The notes under the pieces: generated by a model
What the model saw: only the letters and a program-made list of their open reading frames with translations
What the model was told of the DNA's origin: nothing
Databases searched by the model: none
Assembly: GCF_012927085.1 (NCBI RefSeq)
Contig: NZ_JABBFX010000004.1
Location: 372,001-436,000, forward strand
Origin: Ramlibacter agri
Lineage (GTDB): Bacteria; Pseudomonadota; Gammaproteobacteria; Burkholderiales; Burkholderiaceae_C
Direction: 5' to 3'
Length of the DNA: 64,000 nt
Position numbers and translations under genes: made by a program
Shown here: positions 31,215 to 45,308 of the stretch, one piece after another
Layout: each line of letters opens with the position of its first letter
How positions within the stretch are numbered: the first letter of the stretch is position 1

Positions 31215-31304
31215 CACAATGGTGCGGCCAATACCAGCCTGGACGCTGAAGCCTTGCTGGCGGCACCCCCGCAGTCCTATTTCAACTTCTCAAGGAGGAT
31301 ACCC

Positions 31305-32039
31305 ATGCGCGCCATCGATTTCACCACTGTCACCCAAGCCAAGCTCTGGAACCCCGCCGCGCTCGCCGCGCCGCTCGATTTCCAGGATTCCGGCCCCGCG
31401 CCCGCGCTGGACTTCCACGTTGCCGAAGCGGACGCCCCGCTGCAGCTGCGCGTGCTGCGCACGGCCCGCCAGCGCGAGGAGCTTGCGACGCTGCGCAAGC
31501 ACGCCCCGATGGGCGTCGAGGACGACCTGGGTGCCGGCCTGATGCCTTACGAGACGCTGCGCGACGACATGGGCTTCGTCACGGCCATGTACCGCGGCAG
31601 CAAGCTGGTGGCGACGATGCGCTTCGTGCCGAGCGGCCTGCGCCTCACCGCGGCCGAGCGCCTGCCCGACGGCATCGGCGAGGCCGGCAACCGCATCCTC
31701 GGCGCGGGCAACTGGGAAGTGGGCCGCCTGATCGTGGCGCCGGACGAGCGTTCGCCCGAGCTGCTGCAGGACTGCCTGACCCTGGCCCTGCGCGCGCTGA
31801 TCGAAGAGCGCGACGTCGACCATTTCTACGCCATTGCCACGCCCGTGATGGCGCGCCTGTGGCGCCGCTTCGGCATGCGCCCGGCGGCCCCGCTGCGCGG
31901 CGCGAGCGGGCGCGACTTCATGCTGGTGGCCGGGGCCGTGGCCGCCGTCGCCACAGCGCTCGAGGTGCCGCTGCCGGCCCGCCGCGGCGTGGTTCCCGTT
32001 GCCGTCCTGCACGAGGAAGAAGCCGCCCTCGCTGCTTGA
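31305..32039 (+). CDS. LuxI/FeeM-like GNAT acyltransferase, module A
   Basis: 244 residues. The core (about 45-210) fits the autoinducer-synthase/N-acyl amino acid synthase branch of the GNAT fold: R-x-x-x-E-x-x-x-L-R-K (52-65), an acidic R-D-D (86-88) before the beta strand F-V-T-A-M-Y-R-G-S-K-L-V-A-T-M-R-F-V-P, then W-E-V-G-R-L (E138, R141), where LuxI-type enzymes have E-x-x-R, and a C-terminal F-Y-A-I-A-T-P-V-M-A-R-L-W-R-R-F-G-M. LuxI/FeeM enzymes use acyl-ACP or acyl-CoA as donor. Strong ribosome site AAGGAGG at 31292-31298. The next gene is a CqsS-like kinase. Inference: makes an acylated signal. Alternative: a PEP-CTERM-type or housekeeping N-acyltransferase. Confidence 0.72.
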   Translation: MRAIDFTTVTQAKLWNPAALAAPLDFQDSGPAPALDFHVAEADAPLQLRVLRTARQREELATLRKHAPMGVEDDLGAGLMPYETLRDDMGFVTAMYRGSKLVATMRFVPSGLRLTAAERLPDGIGEAGNRILGAGNWEVGRLIVAPDERSPELLQDCLTLALRALIEERDVDHFYAIATPVMARLWRRFGMRPAAPLRGASGRDFMLVAGAVAAVATALEVPLPARRGVVPVAVLHEEEAALAA

Positions 32040-32084
32040 GGAGATGGCGTACTTCCAGCTGACCCCGTTTGCTATAAAGTTCCC

Positions 32085-32150
32085 ATGAGAGCCGGCACAG
32101 CCCGGGCCGCCACGAGCGCCCGGGGGCCGGGGGCAAGGGAGAGGGAATGA
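32085..32150 (+). other. Possible 21-codon ORF overlapping the module A kinase start
   Basis: ATG at 32085 opens a 21-residue basic, Ala/Gly/Arg-rich ORF whose TGA overlaps the kinase ATG (ATGA). A TATAAA box at 32073-32078 lies just upstream, and there is no ribosome site. It could be a coupling leader or chance; the composition is low-complexity and not signal-like. Confidence 0.2.
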
Positions 32151-33868
32151 AAAGACTGGTCACCGACCTCATGCGCAGGTATCGGGCGCATCACGCTGGC
32201 AACGGCGGGCTGCTGCAGGGAATCGGCATCGTGGGGACAGTCGCGTTCCCGGGCATCTACCTGCTGCGCTTCACCGGCAGGCTGCCGCCATTGTGGGACG
32301 ACCTCCACTGGCGCCTGGTGGCGACCGTCCTTTGCTTCGGCCTCGCCACGCGCAAGTACTGGCCGCAGAAACTGCAGCCCTACTACCTGGGCTACTCCTG
32401 GTTCGCCGTCTTCTATTCGCTGGCCTTCCTGCTGCCGCTCACGCTGCTGCAGAACAACGCATCCACGCCCTCGGTCGCCAACATGGTGGTGAGCGTGGTG
32501 CTGATCATCCTGCTGACCGACTGGCGCAACACCATCATCATGCTGGTGGCCGGCTACATGTCCAGCATCGCGGTGTACTGGCTCATGATGCCGGACCCCG
32601 TGCTGCCTTCCAGCTTCCTGCTGTGGTGGGTGCCCCTGAGCGCCGTGCTCGTGGCCAGCGGCAGCATCTCCAAGTACGTGGAAAAACGCGCCGAGCTGGT
32701 GCGCATGCGCCGCCTCTATTCCGGCATGGCGGGCTCCGTGGCGCATGAGATGCGCACGCCGCTGTCGCAGGTGCAGCATGCGCTGGACACCATCGAGGCC
32801 AGCCTGCGGCGCAACACCAGCCGCAATGGCGCGGTGCTCACGCGCGAGGACCTGGCGCAGCTCCTGAACCTCACGGCCCAGGGCAAGCGCTCGGTGGGCC
32901 GCGGCCTGCAGGCGATCACCCTCACCTTGCAGCAACTGAGCGAGCGCGCCGTCGACACCAGCCACTACACGCGCCTGTCCGCCGCAGCCTGCGTGCAGAA
33001 GGCGGTGGACGAATACGCCTACGAAGGCGCGCAGCAGCGCTCCCGCGTGCGGCTGGACGTGCTGGATGACTTCGTCTTCATCGGCGACGAGACCGCCGTG
33101 GTGCTGATCGTGTTCAACCTGCTGAAGAACGCGCTGTACTACCTGCCCCTGCATCCCGAAGCCACCATCACCATCACCGTCGACGCCGGCCCCGAGCACC
33201 GCATCGTGGTGCGTGACACCGGCCCGGGCATTCCGCCGGAGGTCGTCGGCGGCTTGTTCGAAGAGTTCCAGTCCGCCGGCAAGGTCGAAGGCACGGGCCT
33301 GGGCCTGGCGTTCTCGCGCCGCGCCATGCGCGCCTGCGGCGGCGACATCGCTTGCCGCTCCGAGCTGGGCCAGTTCACCGAATTCACGCTGCGCTTCCCG
33401 CCCGCGCCGGCCGGCGCCGAGGCCGCACCCGCGGCCGCGCCGGAACCTGCCGCCCGGCCGGCCCTGGACCTGGCGGGCCGCACGGTGCTGGTGGTGGACG
33501 ACAGCGCCTTCAACCGCACCATCGTCAAGGCCCGCCTCGGCGAGCTGGGCGTGCACGCCATCGAGGCGCAGCATGGCGGCGAAGCCCTGCGCATGATCGA
33601 CGAAGGGGCGCGCCCCGCCGCCATCCTGATGGACATGCAGATGCCGGGGCTCAGCGGCGTGGAGGCGACGCGCGCGCTGCGCAGCCGGCCCGCGCCGGCG
33701 AATGCGATCCCGGTGCTCGGCTTGAGCGCGAACGACCTGCCGTCCTGGCGCGAAGGCGCGCTGGAGGTCGGGATGAACGGCTACCTGACGAAGCCCGTGC
33801 AGCCGGACCTGCTGCGCGAGGAACTGGAGCGGGTGTTGAACGCGCCGGAGCACGCGGCCGCGCCGTAA
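32147..33868 (+). CDS. CqsS/PhcS-like six-TM hybrid histidine kinase, module A
   Basis: 573 residues. Six hydrophobic helices at about 22-42, 54-68, 80-102, 108-124, 128-147 and 157-176 form a sensor without a periplasmic domain. It carries the features P-x-K-L-x-P-Y-Y (73-80) and T-D-W-R-N-T (124-129), which resemble the CqsS sensor as I recall it. DHp with H200 (A-H-E-M-R-T-P-L), HATPase with N-L-L-K-N-A-L-Y-Y, R-D-T-G-P-G-I and G-T-G-L-G-L-A-F, then one receiver with V-V-D-D and phospho-acceptor D496. All catalytic residues are present. CqsS, LqsS and PhcS bind small diffusible signals in this fold. It follows the acyltransferase gene by 107 bases on the same strand. Ribosome site GGGAGAGGG. 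Confidence 0.88.
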   Translation: MKRLVTDLMRRYRAHHAGNGGLLQGIGIVGTVAFPGIYLLRFTGRLPPLWDDLHWRLVATVLCFGLATRKYWPQKLQPYYLGYSWFAVFYSLAFLLPLTLLQNNASTPSVANMVVSVVLIILLTDWRNTIIMLVAGYMSSIAVYWLMMPDPVLPSSFLLWWVPLSAVLVASGSISKYVEKRAELVRMRRLYSGMAGSVAHEMRTPLSQVQHALDTIEASLRRNTSRNGAVLTREDLAQLLNLTAQGKRSVGRGLQAITLTLQQLSERAVDTSHYTRLSAAACVQKAVDEYAYEGAQQRSRVRLDVLDDFVFIGDETAVVLIVFNLLKNALYYLPLHPEATITITVDAGPEHRIVVRDTGPGIPPEVVGGLFEEFQSAGKVEGTGLGLAFSRRAMRACGGDIACRSELGQFTEFTLRFPPAPAGAEAAPAAAPEPAARPALDLAGRTVLVVDDSAFNRTIVKARLGELGVHAIEAQHGGEALRMIDEGARPAAILMDMQMPGLSGVEATRALRSRPAPANAIPVLGLSANDLPSWREGALEVGMNGYLTKPVQPDLLREELERVLNAPEHAAAP

Positions 33869-39107: not shown

Positions 39108-40736
<1,629 letters not shown>

Positions 40737-40862: not shown

Positions 40863-42032
40863 TCAGCCCTGTTCGGCCAGCGGCTGGAAGTACAGCGTGA
40901 CCGCCGTGCCTTGCCCCACCGTGGACCGGATCTCGATGGAGCCGCTGATCGCCTGCATCACGCGGTGGCAGAACATCAGCCCCATGCCGTTGCCGCCGGC
41001 TCCCGCGCGGGTGGTGATCGGCTCGCGCGTGAGCTTGGCCAGCACCTCCGGCGGGATGCCGGGGCCGTTGTCCGCGAACACCATCCAGGCGCGCTTGCCG
41101 GCGGGGGCCGCCGCGTCGCAGCCGACCTCGATGCGCAACTGCGGCGCCGGCTGGCCGCGCAGTGCCTGCAAGGCATTCTTGGCCAGCGTGCACAGCACCA
41201 GGTACAGCAGGTCGCGCCGGCCCGGCAGCCAGAAGTCGCGCTTGACGTCGCTGCTGACGATGGCGCGTTCGCTGTCCTCGAAGGGGAATTCGTCCTGCAG
41301 CGCGCCGACCAGGCTGCTCGCCGACACCGACTGCGGCTGCGCGCCCGGATAGGCGTCGCGCGCCGACTGCACGAAGGTCGACACCAGCGACTGCGCATAC
41401 AGCGCGCGCCGCTCGGCCCGCTCCAGCGCGGCCAGGATCTCGCCCGGATGGTCCTCGGTGAACTGCGCGACGCCCGGCGGCGCATCGGGGCCGGCCGGCA
41501 CGTGGCGGGCGGCCACCGTGCTCACGTAGCCGCGCACCGTGGCCAGCGGCGTGTTCAGTTCGTGCGCCAGGAAGCCGATGGCTTCGCGCAGCGCCGCCAC
41601 CCGGCCTTCGTTCAGCATGCGCTCCAGCGCCTGGCTGCGATACAGCGCCAGGGCTTCGCGCAAGGCCTCGCGCGTGGCCGTGCCGTCCAGCGGCTTTTCC
41701 AGGATGCGCAGCACCTTGCCCTGGTTGACGGCGGCGATCGCGACGTCCTTCTCCGCATAGGCCGTGGCCAGCAGGCGGATCACGTGGCGGTAGTCGCGCT
41801 GCACGGCGCGCAGCAGCTTCATGCCGTCGCGCTCGGGCATGCGGTAGTCGGTGACCAGCACGCCGAATTCGTGGCTGCGCTCGCTCAGGATGGCCAGCGC
41901 CTCATCGGCGCCGCCCGCGGTGGCCACCTTGAATTCGTCGCCGAATTCGAGCGCGAACCACTTGCGCGAGGTGGGTTCGTCGTCCACGAACAGGATGGAT
42001 GGAGCCTCGCCGGCGAGATCATGCATGGGCAT
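40863..42032 (-). CDS. Receiver-histidine kinase protein (PhcR-like architecture), module B
   Basis: 389 residues, soluble. Receiver at about 10-125: V-D-D-E (16-19), phospho-acceptor D62 in T-D-Y-R-M-P, and K113 in L-E-K-P. Then a DHp helix with H157 (A-H-E-L-N-T-P-L-A) and an HATPase domain (L-A-K-N-A-L, A-D-N-G-P-G-I-P, G-N-G-M-G-L-M-F). A receiver followed by a kinase, with no DNA-binding domain, is the layout described for PhcR in Ralstonia. It starts 44 bases after the kinase gene and is the third gene of the module. Inference: takes phosphate from the Hpt of the kinase and passes the signal to an unlinked target. Confidence 0.88.
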   Translation of the reverse strand: MPMHDLAGEAPSILFVDDEPTSRKWFALEFGDEFKVATAGGADEALAILSERSHEFGVLVTDYRMPERDGMKLLRAVQRDYRHVIRLLATAYAEKDVAIAAVNQGKVLRILEKPLDGTATREALREALALYRSQALERMLNEGRVAALREAIGFLAHELNTPLATVRGYVSTVAARHVPAGPDAPPGVAQFTEDHPGEILAALERAERRALYAQSLVSTFVQSARDAYPGAQPQSVSASSLVGALQDEFPFEDSERAIVSSDVKRDFWLPGRRDLLYLVLCTLAKNALQALRGQPAPQLRIEVGCDAAAPAGKRAWMVFADNGPGIPPEVLAKLTREPITTRAGAGGNGMGLMFCHRVMQAISGSIEIRSTVGQGTAVTLYFQPLAEQG

Positions 42033-42076
42033 TCGCCCGATTATCGGGACCTGGGTTCAAGGAAGGGAAGGCGCCG

Positions 42077-44602
42077 TCAGGCGCCGTCACTGCGGGTTTC
42101 GGTGGCGCAATAGGCTTTCAGCGCGGCGTCCGTACGGACCGCCACGGCTTGCAGGTGTTCCAGCCAGGCCGGCGCGTCGGGCCATTCGTCGCGTTCCAGC
42201 AGTGGCACGTACAGGCGGCGCACCAGCTGGTAGAGCGCCTGCGCACCGGCCTCGCCGCTCATGCCCAGCAGCGAATGCAGGGCGTCCAGGCTGCGTTGCC
42301 GGTCCTGGCTGGCGGCGGCGTCCTGCAGGGCGCCGACCAGCCGCGACATCTCGGGCAGGTAGTCCGTCAGCAGTTCTTCCAGCATGCCCAGGCGGCGGTA
42401 GCTTTCCAGGCGCTGCACATTCAGCAGGCCTTCCTCGGGAATCTCCGGGACCACCGGGCGCGCGGCCACGGCAGGCGGCTCGGGGGGCGGAAGCGCCTTG
42501 CCGGTGCCGGCCACCAGCCGCACCAGCGTCTCGTACAGCAGCGCGGAATCGACCGGCTTCACCAGGAAGGCGTCCATGCCGGCGGCCCGCGCCGCGGCTA
42601 CCGCCTCCTCGTCGGAATGCGCAGTCAGCGCGACGACCGGCACGGCCGCCCAGGGCTCGCCGGAATGGCGGATGGCATGCGCCGCCTCCAGGCCGTCCAT
42701 GCCCGGCATGTGCAGGTCGACGACGACGGCGTCGAAGCCATCGTTGGCCTGCAGCTGGTCCAGCACCGCCTGCCCATGTTCGACTTCGATCACGTCGGCG
42801 GCGGCGTTGCGCAGGTAGGCCGCCACGGCCTTGCGGTTGAAGGCGCTGTCGTCGGCCAGCAGGATGCGGCGGCCGGCCAGCCGGCCCGGCTCGGTGCGCG
42901 CGGCGCCGCGCGGTTGCTGCACCACCTGCTGCAGCGCCGCCAGCAGCGGCAGCTGCGCGCAGGGCTTGCTGATGAAGCCGTCCATGCCGCCCTTCAGCGC
43001 CTTGGCGCGGGCCAGGTGCGACGGCTCGCTCGTGTAGGCGATGATGCGCACGTCCTGGTTGGGGCCGGCCTCGTTGCGGACCTTGTCGGCGACGGTGTAG
43101 CCGTCCAGGCCCGGCATGTTCAGGTCCATCAGCACGATGTGGTAAGTGCGCCGGCCCAGCATGTCCAGCGCCACCTGCCCGTCCTCCGCCTCGTCGAGGT
43201 CGGCGGTCAGGGCGAGCGGCCCCAGCTTCTGGCGCGTCGCCATGCGCTGCACCGGGTCGTCCTCGACGATCAGGATGCGCTTGCCGGCCAGCAGGGTGCG
43301 GGCCTGGGCCACGGCGGCCAGCCGGTGCTCCTCGCGCTCCTTCTCGCCGATGGCCGGGAAGCGCATCATGAACTCGGTGTACTGACCGGGCACCGAGCGG
43401 CACTCGATGTCGCCGCCGAAGGCGCGCATCACGCGCTTGCAGTAGGCCAGGCCGAGGCCGGTGCCGCCGGACTTGCCGATCGAGCGGAAGGGCTCGAACA
43501 GGCCCTTGAGCACGTCGGGCGCGATGCCCGGGCCGTTGTCGCGCACCTTCACCTGCTGGTCGGCCACGGTGATGGACACCTGCGTCTGCGGATACGGCGT
43601 CAGGTAGTACAGCGCGTTCTTGATCAGGTTGAACAGGACGAACAGGTAGGCGGTCTCGTCGCCCTTGAAGGTGAAGTCCTCGGCCACCGACACGCTCACC
43701 TTGTCACGGGCCTCGTCGCTGTCGTAGCTGTATTCCTCCACGGCTTGCTGCACCACTTCGGCGGCCGACAGGTAGCGGAAGGTGGTGGCGTCCAGCGGCC
43801 GCGCGCTCACCTCGTCCAGCGTCATGGAGATGACCTGCAGCCCGCGCTGCACGGCCTGTTCGCCGCGGGCCAGGTGCCGATAAAGCTGCTGCACTTCCTG
43901 CGGGTCCAGCCGCGCCGTCTGGCGCGAGGCGCCGGGCGCCGGCAGCACCTCCTGCATTCCTTCCAGGCTGTGCTTCAGCTGCGCGAGCGGATGCCGCATC
44001 TCGTGCGCGATCGAGCCTGCGAGCGCCTGCGTCGCGCGCAGCTTGCGTTCGGCATCGATCCGGTCCGTGCTGGACTTGAACATGTTGCCGCCGATCACGA
44101 CCATCGCGAACGCGGGCAACTGGGCGACGAGGTCGCGCGGAATGTGCGGATTGGTCGTCGTCAGCACGTAGACGCCCGAGGCGAGCGCGGTCCCCACCAG
44201 CACCATCAGCACGGTGTTGCGCCAGTCGGTCAGCAGCACCAGGAAGCACAGGCAGATGAAGGTGTTGGAGATGGACGCGATGCCGCCGCCGCGCTGCAGC
44301 CCGATCAGCACGTTGAAGAACGGCAGGCAGTACAGCAGCACCAGGTAGGAGAAGCGGATGTAGTACGGCTTCAGGCGCTCGGGCCAGAAGTCGCGCAGGC
44401 CCATCAGCAGGAACAGCGCGACGCCGAACAGGCGGAACGGGACGTCCTCGACCAGCAAAGTGTCGTGCGGCCGCGTGTAGCGGAAGAAGTGGAAGGCGGA
44501 GTAGCCGAGCGCGCCGAGGATGCCCATCACCTTCAGCCGGTTCGGGCCGTAGGCGTGATAGTCCTCGTAGTGGCGATAGACCTTCGCCAGGTACTTGATC
44601 AT
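42077..44602 (-). CDS. CqsS/PhcS-like six-TM hybrid kinase with two receivers and Hpt, module B
   Basis: 841 residues. Six-helix sensor (about 22-180) aligning residue for residue in key places with the module A kinase: P-E-R-L-K-P-Y-Y (74-81), T-D-W-R-N-T (125-130), and the DHp His at 200 in both (A-H-E-M-R-H-P-L). HATPase with N-L-I-K-N-A-L-Y-Y, R-D-N-G-P-G-I and G-G-T-G-L-G-L-A-Y. First receiver D493 (L-M-D-L-N-M-P), second receiver D629 (V-V-D-L-H-M-P), C-terminal Hpt with H776 (L-H-S-L-L-G-M-S-G). All phosphorelay residues are present. The ATG overlaps the acyltransferase stop (ATGA), so synthase-like and receptor-like proteins are translationally coupled. Confidence 0.9.
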   Translation of the reverse strand: MIKYLAKVYRHYEDYHAYGPNRLKVMGILGALGYSAFHFFRYTRPHDTLLVEDVPFRLFGVALFLLMGLRDFWPERLKPYYIRFSYLVLLYCLPFFNVLIGLQRGGGIASISNTFICLCFLVLLTDWRNTVLMVLVGTALASGVYVLTTTNPHIPRDLVAQLPAFAMVVIGGNMFKSSTDRIDAERKLRATQALAGSIAHEMRHPLAQLKHSLEGMQEVLPAPGASRQTARLDPQEVQQLYRHLARGEQAVQRGLQVISMTLDEVSARPLDATTFRYLSAAEVVQQAVEEYSYDSDEARDKVSVSVAEDFTFKGDETAYLFVLFNLIKNALYYLTPYPQTQVSITVADQQVKVRDNGPGIAPDVLKGLFEPFRSIGKSGGTGLGLAYCKRVMRAFGGDIECRSVPGQYTEFMMRFPAIGEKEREEHRLAAVAQARTLLAGKRILIVEDDPVQRMATRQKLGPLALTADLDEAEDGQVALDMLGRRTYHIVLMDLNMPGLDGYTVADKVRNEAGPNQDVRIIAYTSEPSHLARAKALKGGMDGFISKPCAQLPLLAALQQVVQQPRGAARTEPGRLAGRRILLADDSAFNRKAVAAYLRNAAADVIEVEHGQAVLDQLQANDGFDAVVVDLHMPGMDGLEAAHAIRHSGEPWAAVPVVALTAHSDEEAVAAARAAGMDAFLVKPVDSALLYETLVRLVAGTGKALPPPEPPAVAARPVVPEIPEEGLLNVQRLESYRRLGMLEELLTDYLPEMSRLVGALQDAAASQDRQRSLDALHSLLGMSGEAGAQALYQLVRRLYVPLLERDEWPDAPAWLEHLQAVAVRTDAALKAYCATETRSDGA

Positions 44603-45308
44603 TGCAGCACCATCGCTTCTTCTTCGAGCTCGATCAGCATTTCCTCCGCGAGCTCGCGTTCTCCCTCGTTGCCGGCGAGTGCCCGCAGCACCTCGGGCAT
44701 GTGGCCGTGGATCAGGCAGTAGGAACCCTCCCCAGCCTGCGCGGCGTCCTTCACCAGCACGCGGAAGCCGAAGCGGCGGTACAGCCGCGCGAGCACCGGG
44801 GTGCAGGACGCAAAGAGATTGTCGAGCCGGGAGTGCTCCAGCATGTCGCAAATGGTGAGGAAGAGGCAGCGGCGCAGGAATTCGGGGCCACCCCGATAGT
44901 GCGGGTCGACGACGAGGCGGCCGACCTCCCAGGCGTTCTCGAGCAGCTCAGGGGCGATGTCGTGGCGCTCGATCATCTTGTCGCAGGGCGCGACGTTCCG
45001 GGCCAGGGGAAGGACGCGGATCGTGCCTATGTACGCACCGAAACGCAGGAAGGCGCCGACCATGCCCACCTGGTCTCTTTTTTTTCGCGGGTACTGAAGG
45101 CGAGGTCCTCCCGGGCGGACTGCGGCAGGCGGATTTCGTCGCGCAGGTGCAGGATGCGGGTGATTTCGACGGGCGTGCGGAGATGGCGGAAAGTGACCTC
45201 GTGCGCCTGGACGTCCGTGGATTCCAGCGGCGGAAGATCCCCCAGCAAGGCAATCGGTCCGGCGGACGGCAGCGCGAACGATTGGTCCAGGGTCGACAGG
45301 TCACTCAT
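44599..45308 (-). CDS. LuxI/FeeM-like GNAT acyltransferase, module B, frame broken at an A8 tract
   Basis: The ATG at 45308 (GAGAGGAAAG upstream) opens a frame that runs 93 codons and stops at 45027. The rest of the protein lies in another frame, entered at the A8 tract 45078-45085. Read with one extra A, the product is 236 residues and aligns with module A: E-K-K-R-D-Q-V-G-M-V-G-A-F against T-L-R-D-D-M-G-F-V-T-A-M, W-E-V-G-R-L-V-V against W-E-V-G-R-L-I-V, and C-T-P-V-L-A-R-L-Y-R-R-F-G-F against A-T-P-V-M-A-R-L-W-R-R-F-G-M. So the two are paralogues. Expression would need -1 frameshifting, transcriptional slippage or a phase change; a base-call error is an equal possibility. Confidence 0.75.
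45078..45085 (-). other. A8 homopolymer at the frame break (slippage or phase-variation site)
   Basis: Eight T on the plus strand, read as GCG-AAAAAAAA-GAG in the gene. In the zero frame it is G-AAA-AAA-AAG-type slippery sequence; a -1 slip re-reads one A and enters the frame that encodes the remaining 150 residues. Long A runs are rare in this GC-rich sequence; the only comparable one seen is the livK-livH terminator. Confidence 0.7.

Follow-up and report, generated by a model that had tools for sequence, protein, structure and literature searches.

An acyltransferase gene in two reading frames

The locus in Ramlibacter agri raises two linked questions: how an acyltransferase that is encoded in two reading frames comes to be made as one protein, and whether this enzyme produces a signal for the kinase encoded directly behind it. 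In the window (the whole 64-kb stretch of DNA that was analysed), three genes follow each other on the reverse strand: the acyltransferase; a hybrid kinase of 841 aa (42,077-44,602); and a PhcR-like receiver-histidine kinase of 389 aa without a DNA-binding domain (40,863-42,032). The stop codon of the acyltransferase overlaps the start codon of the hybrid kinase (ATGA), and 44 bases separate the two kinase genes. An earlier note on this DNA had described the same layout, and its coordinates, overlap and spacing stand; its description of the acyltransferase as a single open frame has to be given up, since the gene is split in two frames. The N part (45,027-45,308, reverse strand, frame 0) would give 93 aa without a shift, about 76 of them up to the slip site; the C part (44,599-45,069, reverse strand; 156 aa), which holds a GNAT core of the FeeM type, lies in the -1 frame and is entered at the slip site.

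The two parts can be joined only via a -1 shift at a run of eight adenines (A8; 45,078-45,085, reverse strand). The sequence at the joint reads CGC GAA AAA AAA GAG ACC (G-A8-GAGA), so that the run is made up exactly of the glutamate codon and the slippery heptamer A_AAA_AAA in frame 0; a -1 step here yields E-K-K-R-D and one protein of 236 aa, which aligns with continuous relatives gaplessly at the site (L046, which has other frame breaks, was left out, and L002 is unaligned there). The site thus has the make-up of programmed -1 recoding, with a correctly phased slippery heptamer where the two selected frames meet. The 13-mer G-A8-GAGA occurs a single time in the whole 7.2-Mb genome. Among relatives the N part is kept in frame 0; past the site, frame 0 continues for 3 to 84 codons (median 21; 39 genes, L046 excluded), and so variable an extension looks like a truncated tail, unlike a conserved product. 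An Rfam search over the 64-kb window gave no matches.

Conservation of the run and the frame relation

Homologues of the C part were found in 26 of 61 related genomes (26 of the 37 of the same genus, none of the 24 others), and a scan with one genome per species gave 41 homologous loci, from Ramlibacter, Caenimonas, Polaromonas, Hydrogenophaga, Paraburkholderia, Burkholderia sp. H160 and other Burkholderiales. An order-wide survey with the C-part alignment returned one of 399 genomes, that of R. agri itself; beyond the genus sample the enzyme is thus rarely met. The A run and the -1 relation are present at the same place in 39 of the 41 loci as well as in the window, and the relation holds in all 40 genes that have the run (39 loci plus the window). 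Only one of these 40 genes has a longer run (A9, in L056, where substitutions make the difference and the frame relation is unchanged); the rest have A8. Counted among the run carriers is L046 from R. terrae (CP053418), an assembly in which the frame of this gene is broken at several further points. The two loci that lack the run, L064 and L073, encode a continuous acyltransferase.

Other searches gave similar results. A survey of kinases in the genus, which overlaps the first set, returned 30 loci, 28 with the A run; of the other two, L105 has a continuous acyltransferase and L097 has none upstream. In genome G014 (L082; also L015/L029) the A8 run is kept and the sequence after it is two bases shorter, which brings the parts into frame there; the same gene has a second frame break further on. 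Seven of ten further sensor loci could be assigned (all but L110, L127 and L129): four have the A run (L108, L112, L113 and L134), L109 is continuous, and L114 and L128 are of the B type described below. L112 also contains a second A8 run on the opposite strand, with no long open -1 frame after it.

Over 38 aligned genes (L046 and L056 left out) the sequence G-A8-G-A-G-A is invariant, with one position at 97%; most columns in the 45 bases upstream and the 60 bases downstream are less conserved, and the few invariant bases there are single or paired, for example TT at -13/-12. These 13 bases are near-invariant, while pairwise identity between C parts drops as low as 31% (26-gene set); elsewhere in these genes AAA makes up 28% of lysine codons and AGA 3.6% of arginine codons. 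In 41 close pairs (L046 and L056 again left out), substitutions before the run number 146, 128 and 216 at the three codon positions of frame 0, the third being highest, and after the run it is the third position of the -1 frame that collects most of them (333 vs 74 and 110); the pattern indicates purifying selection on both parts of the acyltransferase, each in its own frame. A midpoint-rooted tree (G014 and L046 left out) gathers the shifted genes in a single supported group. Of its 41 rows 39 are shifted, and within it the continuous L064 is firmly nested and the continuous L105 loosely nested; the B-type acyltransferases, all continuous, fall outside the group. The shift therefore looks old, can be lost, and has mostly been kept.

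Recoding and its alternatives

Judged from these alignments, the split frame is better accounted for by conserved recoding, through a ribosomal -1 shift or polymerase slippage, than by decay, phase variation or sequencing error. Homopolymers do attract errors, and in R. terrae and G014 this gene is broken at other points too, but a pseudogene or a sequencing error can practically be dismissed, given an identical run and relation in 39 of the 41 loci, from many independent assemblies, and purifying selection on each frame. Phase variation is a frequent effect of homopolymer tracts within genes, and the A run might be imagined as a contingency tract whose slippage during replication switches the gene; this is scarcely credible, since all 40 run-bearing genes show the off relation, the A9 gene keeps the frame relation despite its substitutions, and the in-frame case in G014 stems from a two-base difference after the run and not from run length. 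Quite improbable, too, is an enzyme of two chains, in which the C part would start from an internal start codon and pair with the N part. The purine-rich run might serve as a ribosome-binding site, and in the window GTG and ATG lie 3 and 5 codons past the site; among 39 genes (L046 left out), however, 14 lack any ATG, GTG or TTG within eight codons past the site, 30 share the most frequent start-like codon, at offset 24, which already falls within the core, and 28 offer no start in the C frame from its upstream stop as far as the site; relatives are continuous. Phase variation, a pseudogene, an assembly error and internal initiation were all set aside on these grounds: the recurrence of run and relation, selection in both frames, and the start-codon counts.

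Recoding itself could take place on the ribosome or in the mRNA, and both routes can yield the same protein. RNA polymerase might add one A or drop two at the A8 run, so that a fraction of the transcripts would encode the full-length enzyme; we hold this to be a possible if less favoured route, and lean towards ribosomal -1 frameshifting. The run is pure and has neither a Shine-Dalgarno (SD)-like nor a structural stimulator, which would suit the polymerase: SD-like sites lie upstream of it in 2 of 39 genes (vs 14% in the control), RNA structure downstream has mean z-scores of -0.20 and -0.36 and is nothing special (L046 left out of both counts), and 50-nt fold energies along the genes show nothing special after it. 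Eight adenines have also been proposed to slip in insertion sequence (IS) elements of Deinococcus and Nostoc, although the same source, in the sections drawn on here, puts the usual slippage threshold at nine (PMC1088944). Against the polymerase, the run is exactly the glutamate codon plus the heptamer and almost never longer, and the R. agri genome has separate tRNA-Lys UUU and CUU, a set that would make an all-AAA site the better choice for the ribosome. For -1 shifts, stimulators are described as usual and not obligatory, and in E. coli 61% of heptamers are said to shift to some extent without them (both in part of PMC4066793); A_AAA_AAG is given as a stronger slip site than A_AAA_AAA in a passage of PMC5009743.

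Fold and family of the acyltransferase

The C part matches the Pfam family FeeM (PF21926) by a small margin (28.9 bits, cut-off 27), and the continuous acyltransferase of L064 matches it at 35.7 bits. The LuxI family (PF00765, Autoind_synth) is matched by neither part in Pfam, the N part alone has no Pfam match, and a LuxI profile found nothing in the R. agri genome, as it found nothing in the control genomes. In a structure comparison LuxI and FeeM structures fill 10 of the top 11 rows, with other GNATs scoring close behind and one tied, so that the ranks are near ties; the earlier note's call of a LuxI/FeeM-like acyltransferase therefore holds for the fold, less sharply for the separation from other GNATs. 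By sequence, the PDB contains no significant relative (best E 0.32), NCBIfam has no model for the acyltransferases or for the haem-oxygenase-like protein tested (see below), and a plasmid collection searched with a Paraburkholderia C part gave no match.

Receptor kinase and third gene

Pfam places two receivers, HATPase_c and Hpt in the hybrid kinase, with HisKA below the cut-off; the phosphorelay residues D493, D629 and H776 are at the positions previously proposed, and the HisKA histidine is H200. Its sensor (residues 1-183) had been likened to CqsS, and profile comparison bears this out: hhalign against three Vibrio CqsS sensors gives a probability of 98.4 and an E-value of 5.3e-15 over 158 columns, and against nine LqsS-type sensors of other Gammaproteobacteria an E-value of 1.5e-39. 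An aminotransferase class I/II gene is found beside two of the three Vibrio kinases (the two that were examined), which we take to be CqsS beside CqsA; a receiver-like ORF of the LqsR type adjoins seven of the nine LqsS-type kinases by eye, and in L138 it was confirmed by Pfam. The model of the sensor has a pLDDT of 83.5, and Foldseek returned nothing for it at E 0.001 (the top row is ImcA, with E 0.2, probability 0.98 and TM 0.55); when the whole kinase was compared with the PDB, the best 60 of 72 matches cover the kinase and receiver parts, and none covers the sensor. In L115 (Comamonadaceae), an LqsS-like kinase is flanked by a receiver gene on one side and an aminotransferase-like gene on the other, which makes an Lqs-like set.

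The third gene encodes a receiver, HisKA and HATPase_c and no DNA-binding domain according to Pfam, as had been read from the sequence and as PhcR is defined in the portion of PMC8578825 used here. Seven homologues were found in 300 Burkholderiales genomes (42-63% identity), and six of the seven lie, by eye, in operons of a kinase, a receiver-kinase and a receiver, the layout that the same source, in part, gives for phcS-phcR-phcQ (PMC8578825).

Pairing, co-divergence and neighbouring genes

A kinase of this class lies downstream of the acyltransferase in 40 of the 41 loci (the exception is L073), and in the first survey it follows the acyltransferase in all 31 loci holding the latter, two of which are halves of one gene; the counter-case is L097, a kinase of the class with no acyltransferase upstream. 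The co-occurrence expected in the earlier note is borne out by this survey, and together with the sensor profile match it points to a regular pairing of the acyltransferase with a receptor of the CqsS/LqsS class. Over 26 genes the mean pairwise identity is 0.45 for the N part of the enzyme, 0.48 for the C part, 0.53 for the sensor, 0.55 for the receivers plus Hpt, 0.66 for the kinase core and 0.71 for the third gene. Identities of the C part and the sensor correlate over the 26 loci with r 0.86, and with a partial r of 0.62 given the core and the third gene, pairs not being independent; the value to set against this, for the receiver-Hpt part, is 0.01 (L046 and the 13 of 39 genes without the long kinase and the third gene were left out). 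Such co-divergence of enzyme and sensor is what should be expected of a signal maker and its receptor, with the pairs again not independent.

In several loci enzyme and kinase stand about 0.8 kb apart, and a haem-oxygenase-like gene fills the space (L053, L064, L065 and L066); that of L053 (7,467-8,123), the one of the four tested, belongs to PF14518. On a plasmid of Paraburkholderia caribensis (L033, 4,918-8,559), a ketoacyl-synthase-III-like gene lies directly before a kinase of this class, which shares 37% identity with the window kinase over its full length; the ketoacyl-synthase-III-like gene possibly stands for yet another signal chemistry read by such receptors. From these two kinds of neighbour, the chemistry partnered with the sensor class seems to vary. 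A gene of the PF14518 family also lies beside an LqsS-type kinase in L143 (664-1,404), from a lineage distant from that of L053.

The next gene on the same strand in the window encodes an acyl-CoA ligase (39,108-40,736, reverse strand), which scores over the cut-off of the NCBIfam model for 3-(methylthio)propionyl-CoA ligase. An acyl-CoA ligase is found downstream in 23 of the 41 loci, in 17 of these directly after the third gene; it may supply a precursor, or its position may be only synteny.

A putative synthase-receptor module and known systems

We consider it likely that the locus encodes a cell-cell signalling module, with the recoded acyltransferase as autoinducer synthase, the kinase as receptor and the dose set by the frameshift; this view draws on the split frame, its conservation, selection in both frames, the GNAT core, the sensor class, the pairing and the co-divergence, all of them read from sequences. 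The acyltransferase would make a small acylated signal, which the adjacent hybrid kinase would sense and pass into a phosphorelay through its two receivers and Hpt to the PhcR-like receiver-kinase. Full-length enzyme would arise only after the -1 move at A_AAA_AAA (GAA AAA AAA, then AGA GAC), and translation without the shift would end in an N-terminal fragment that lacks the catalytic core; the slip rate would thereby set the dose of the synthase, and probably keep it low. The shift may affect the kinase as well, because only shifted ribosomes would reach the ATGA overlap. It is unlikely, on the other hand, that the recoded enzyme acylates a protein, lipid or metabolite and that the kinase responds to another stimulus. 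GNATs have a versatile fold, and many that are not LuxI come near the top of the structure ranks, but LuxI and FeeM dominate those ranks, the partner belongs to a class of autoinducer sensors, and enzyme and sensor co-diverge.

The signalling module proposed here shares with CqsA/CqsS and LqsA/LqsS (alpha-hydroxyketone quorum sensing) the sensor class and a putative synthase gene that adjoins the receptor gene; CqsA and LqsA, however, are PLP-dependent aminotransferase-like proteins by Pfam, and the Ramlibacter enzyme is a recoded GNAT of the FeeM type. With PhcB/PhcS/PhcR/PhcQ of Ralstonia, as laid out in part of PMC8578825, it shares the order of a sensor kinase and then a receiver-histidine kinase without a DNA-binding domain; the Ralstonia synthase PhcB is a methyltransferase according to the same portion of that paper and not an acyltransferase, no PhcQ-like third partner is seen in the Ramlibacter operon, and the Ramlibacter kinase has two receivers and Hpt, unlike PhcS. 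FeeM and LuxI-type synthases have the FeeM Pfam match and the fold in common with the Ramlibacter gene, which differs in having no LuxI Pfam match and in needing a frameshift. The closest precedent found for the latter is FseA of Mesorhizobium, where, as proposed here, a programmed frameshift acts in a quorum-sensing-linked circuit, although the passages of PMC5009743 concerned describe a +1 ribosomal shift in an excision activator, as opposed to a -1 shift in a putative signal synthase. In dnaX, IS elements and tssM1, slippage on an A run likewise gives a second product; as far as the parts of PMC4066793, PMC1088944 and PMC4256274 drawn on here go, these are not signalling genes, and several of the sites have stimulators or longer runs, neither of which was found here.

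Our literature searches gave no pairing of FeeM with CqsS among the matches listed, related topics being judged by title or abstract opening, and no recoded autoinducer synthase under quorum sensing and programmed frameshift; for acyl-homoserine lactone synthase and ribosomal frameshifting the titles point to rhizobial work only, and for quorum sensing and transcriptional slippage none of the titles concerns a synthase. We are inclined, by a little more than even chances, to see a new class of quorum sensing here, with a FeeM/LuxI-like acyl signal, its modification in places by a haem-oxygenase-like oxidase, sensing of the CqsS/LqsS class, and an old, conserved frameshift in the synthase. If so, acyl-transfer chemistry would be added to the CqsS/LqsS receptor class, and the enzyme would be, as far as our literature searches show, the first autoinducer synthase under recoding control and a clean, testable case in which frameshifting controls dosage in communication between cells. 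Through the frameshift, basal signal output would stay low or follow the state of translation, and the ATGA overlap would tie receptor synthesis to the shift. Such genes are likely annotated as pseudogenes or as two ORFs, so the system may be overlooked in Comamonadaceae and Paraburkholderia.

A second acyltransferase-kinase pair

The window contains two acyltransferase/kinase pairs, at 31,299-33,868 (forward strand) and at 40,863-45,308 (reverse strand). The former consists of a second FeeM-like acyltransferase, the B type (31,299-32,039), which is a single continuous frame and has no A run, and downstream of it a second kinase of the same sensor class (32,147-33,868). A six-frame FeeM search of the R. 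agri genome lists the B-type gene and a third match, both under the cut-off, and leaves the split acyltransferase unlisted; this third, weak match (L002; G000:C1:3512626-3515964) has no kinase of the class within 1.5 kb. Two kinases of the class, 12-15 kb apart, are also found on one contig in four other genomes (G013, G015, G438 and G580), and the linkage of the two may thus be conserved.
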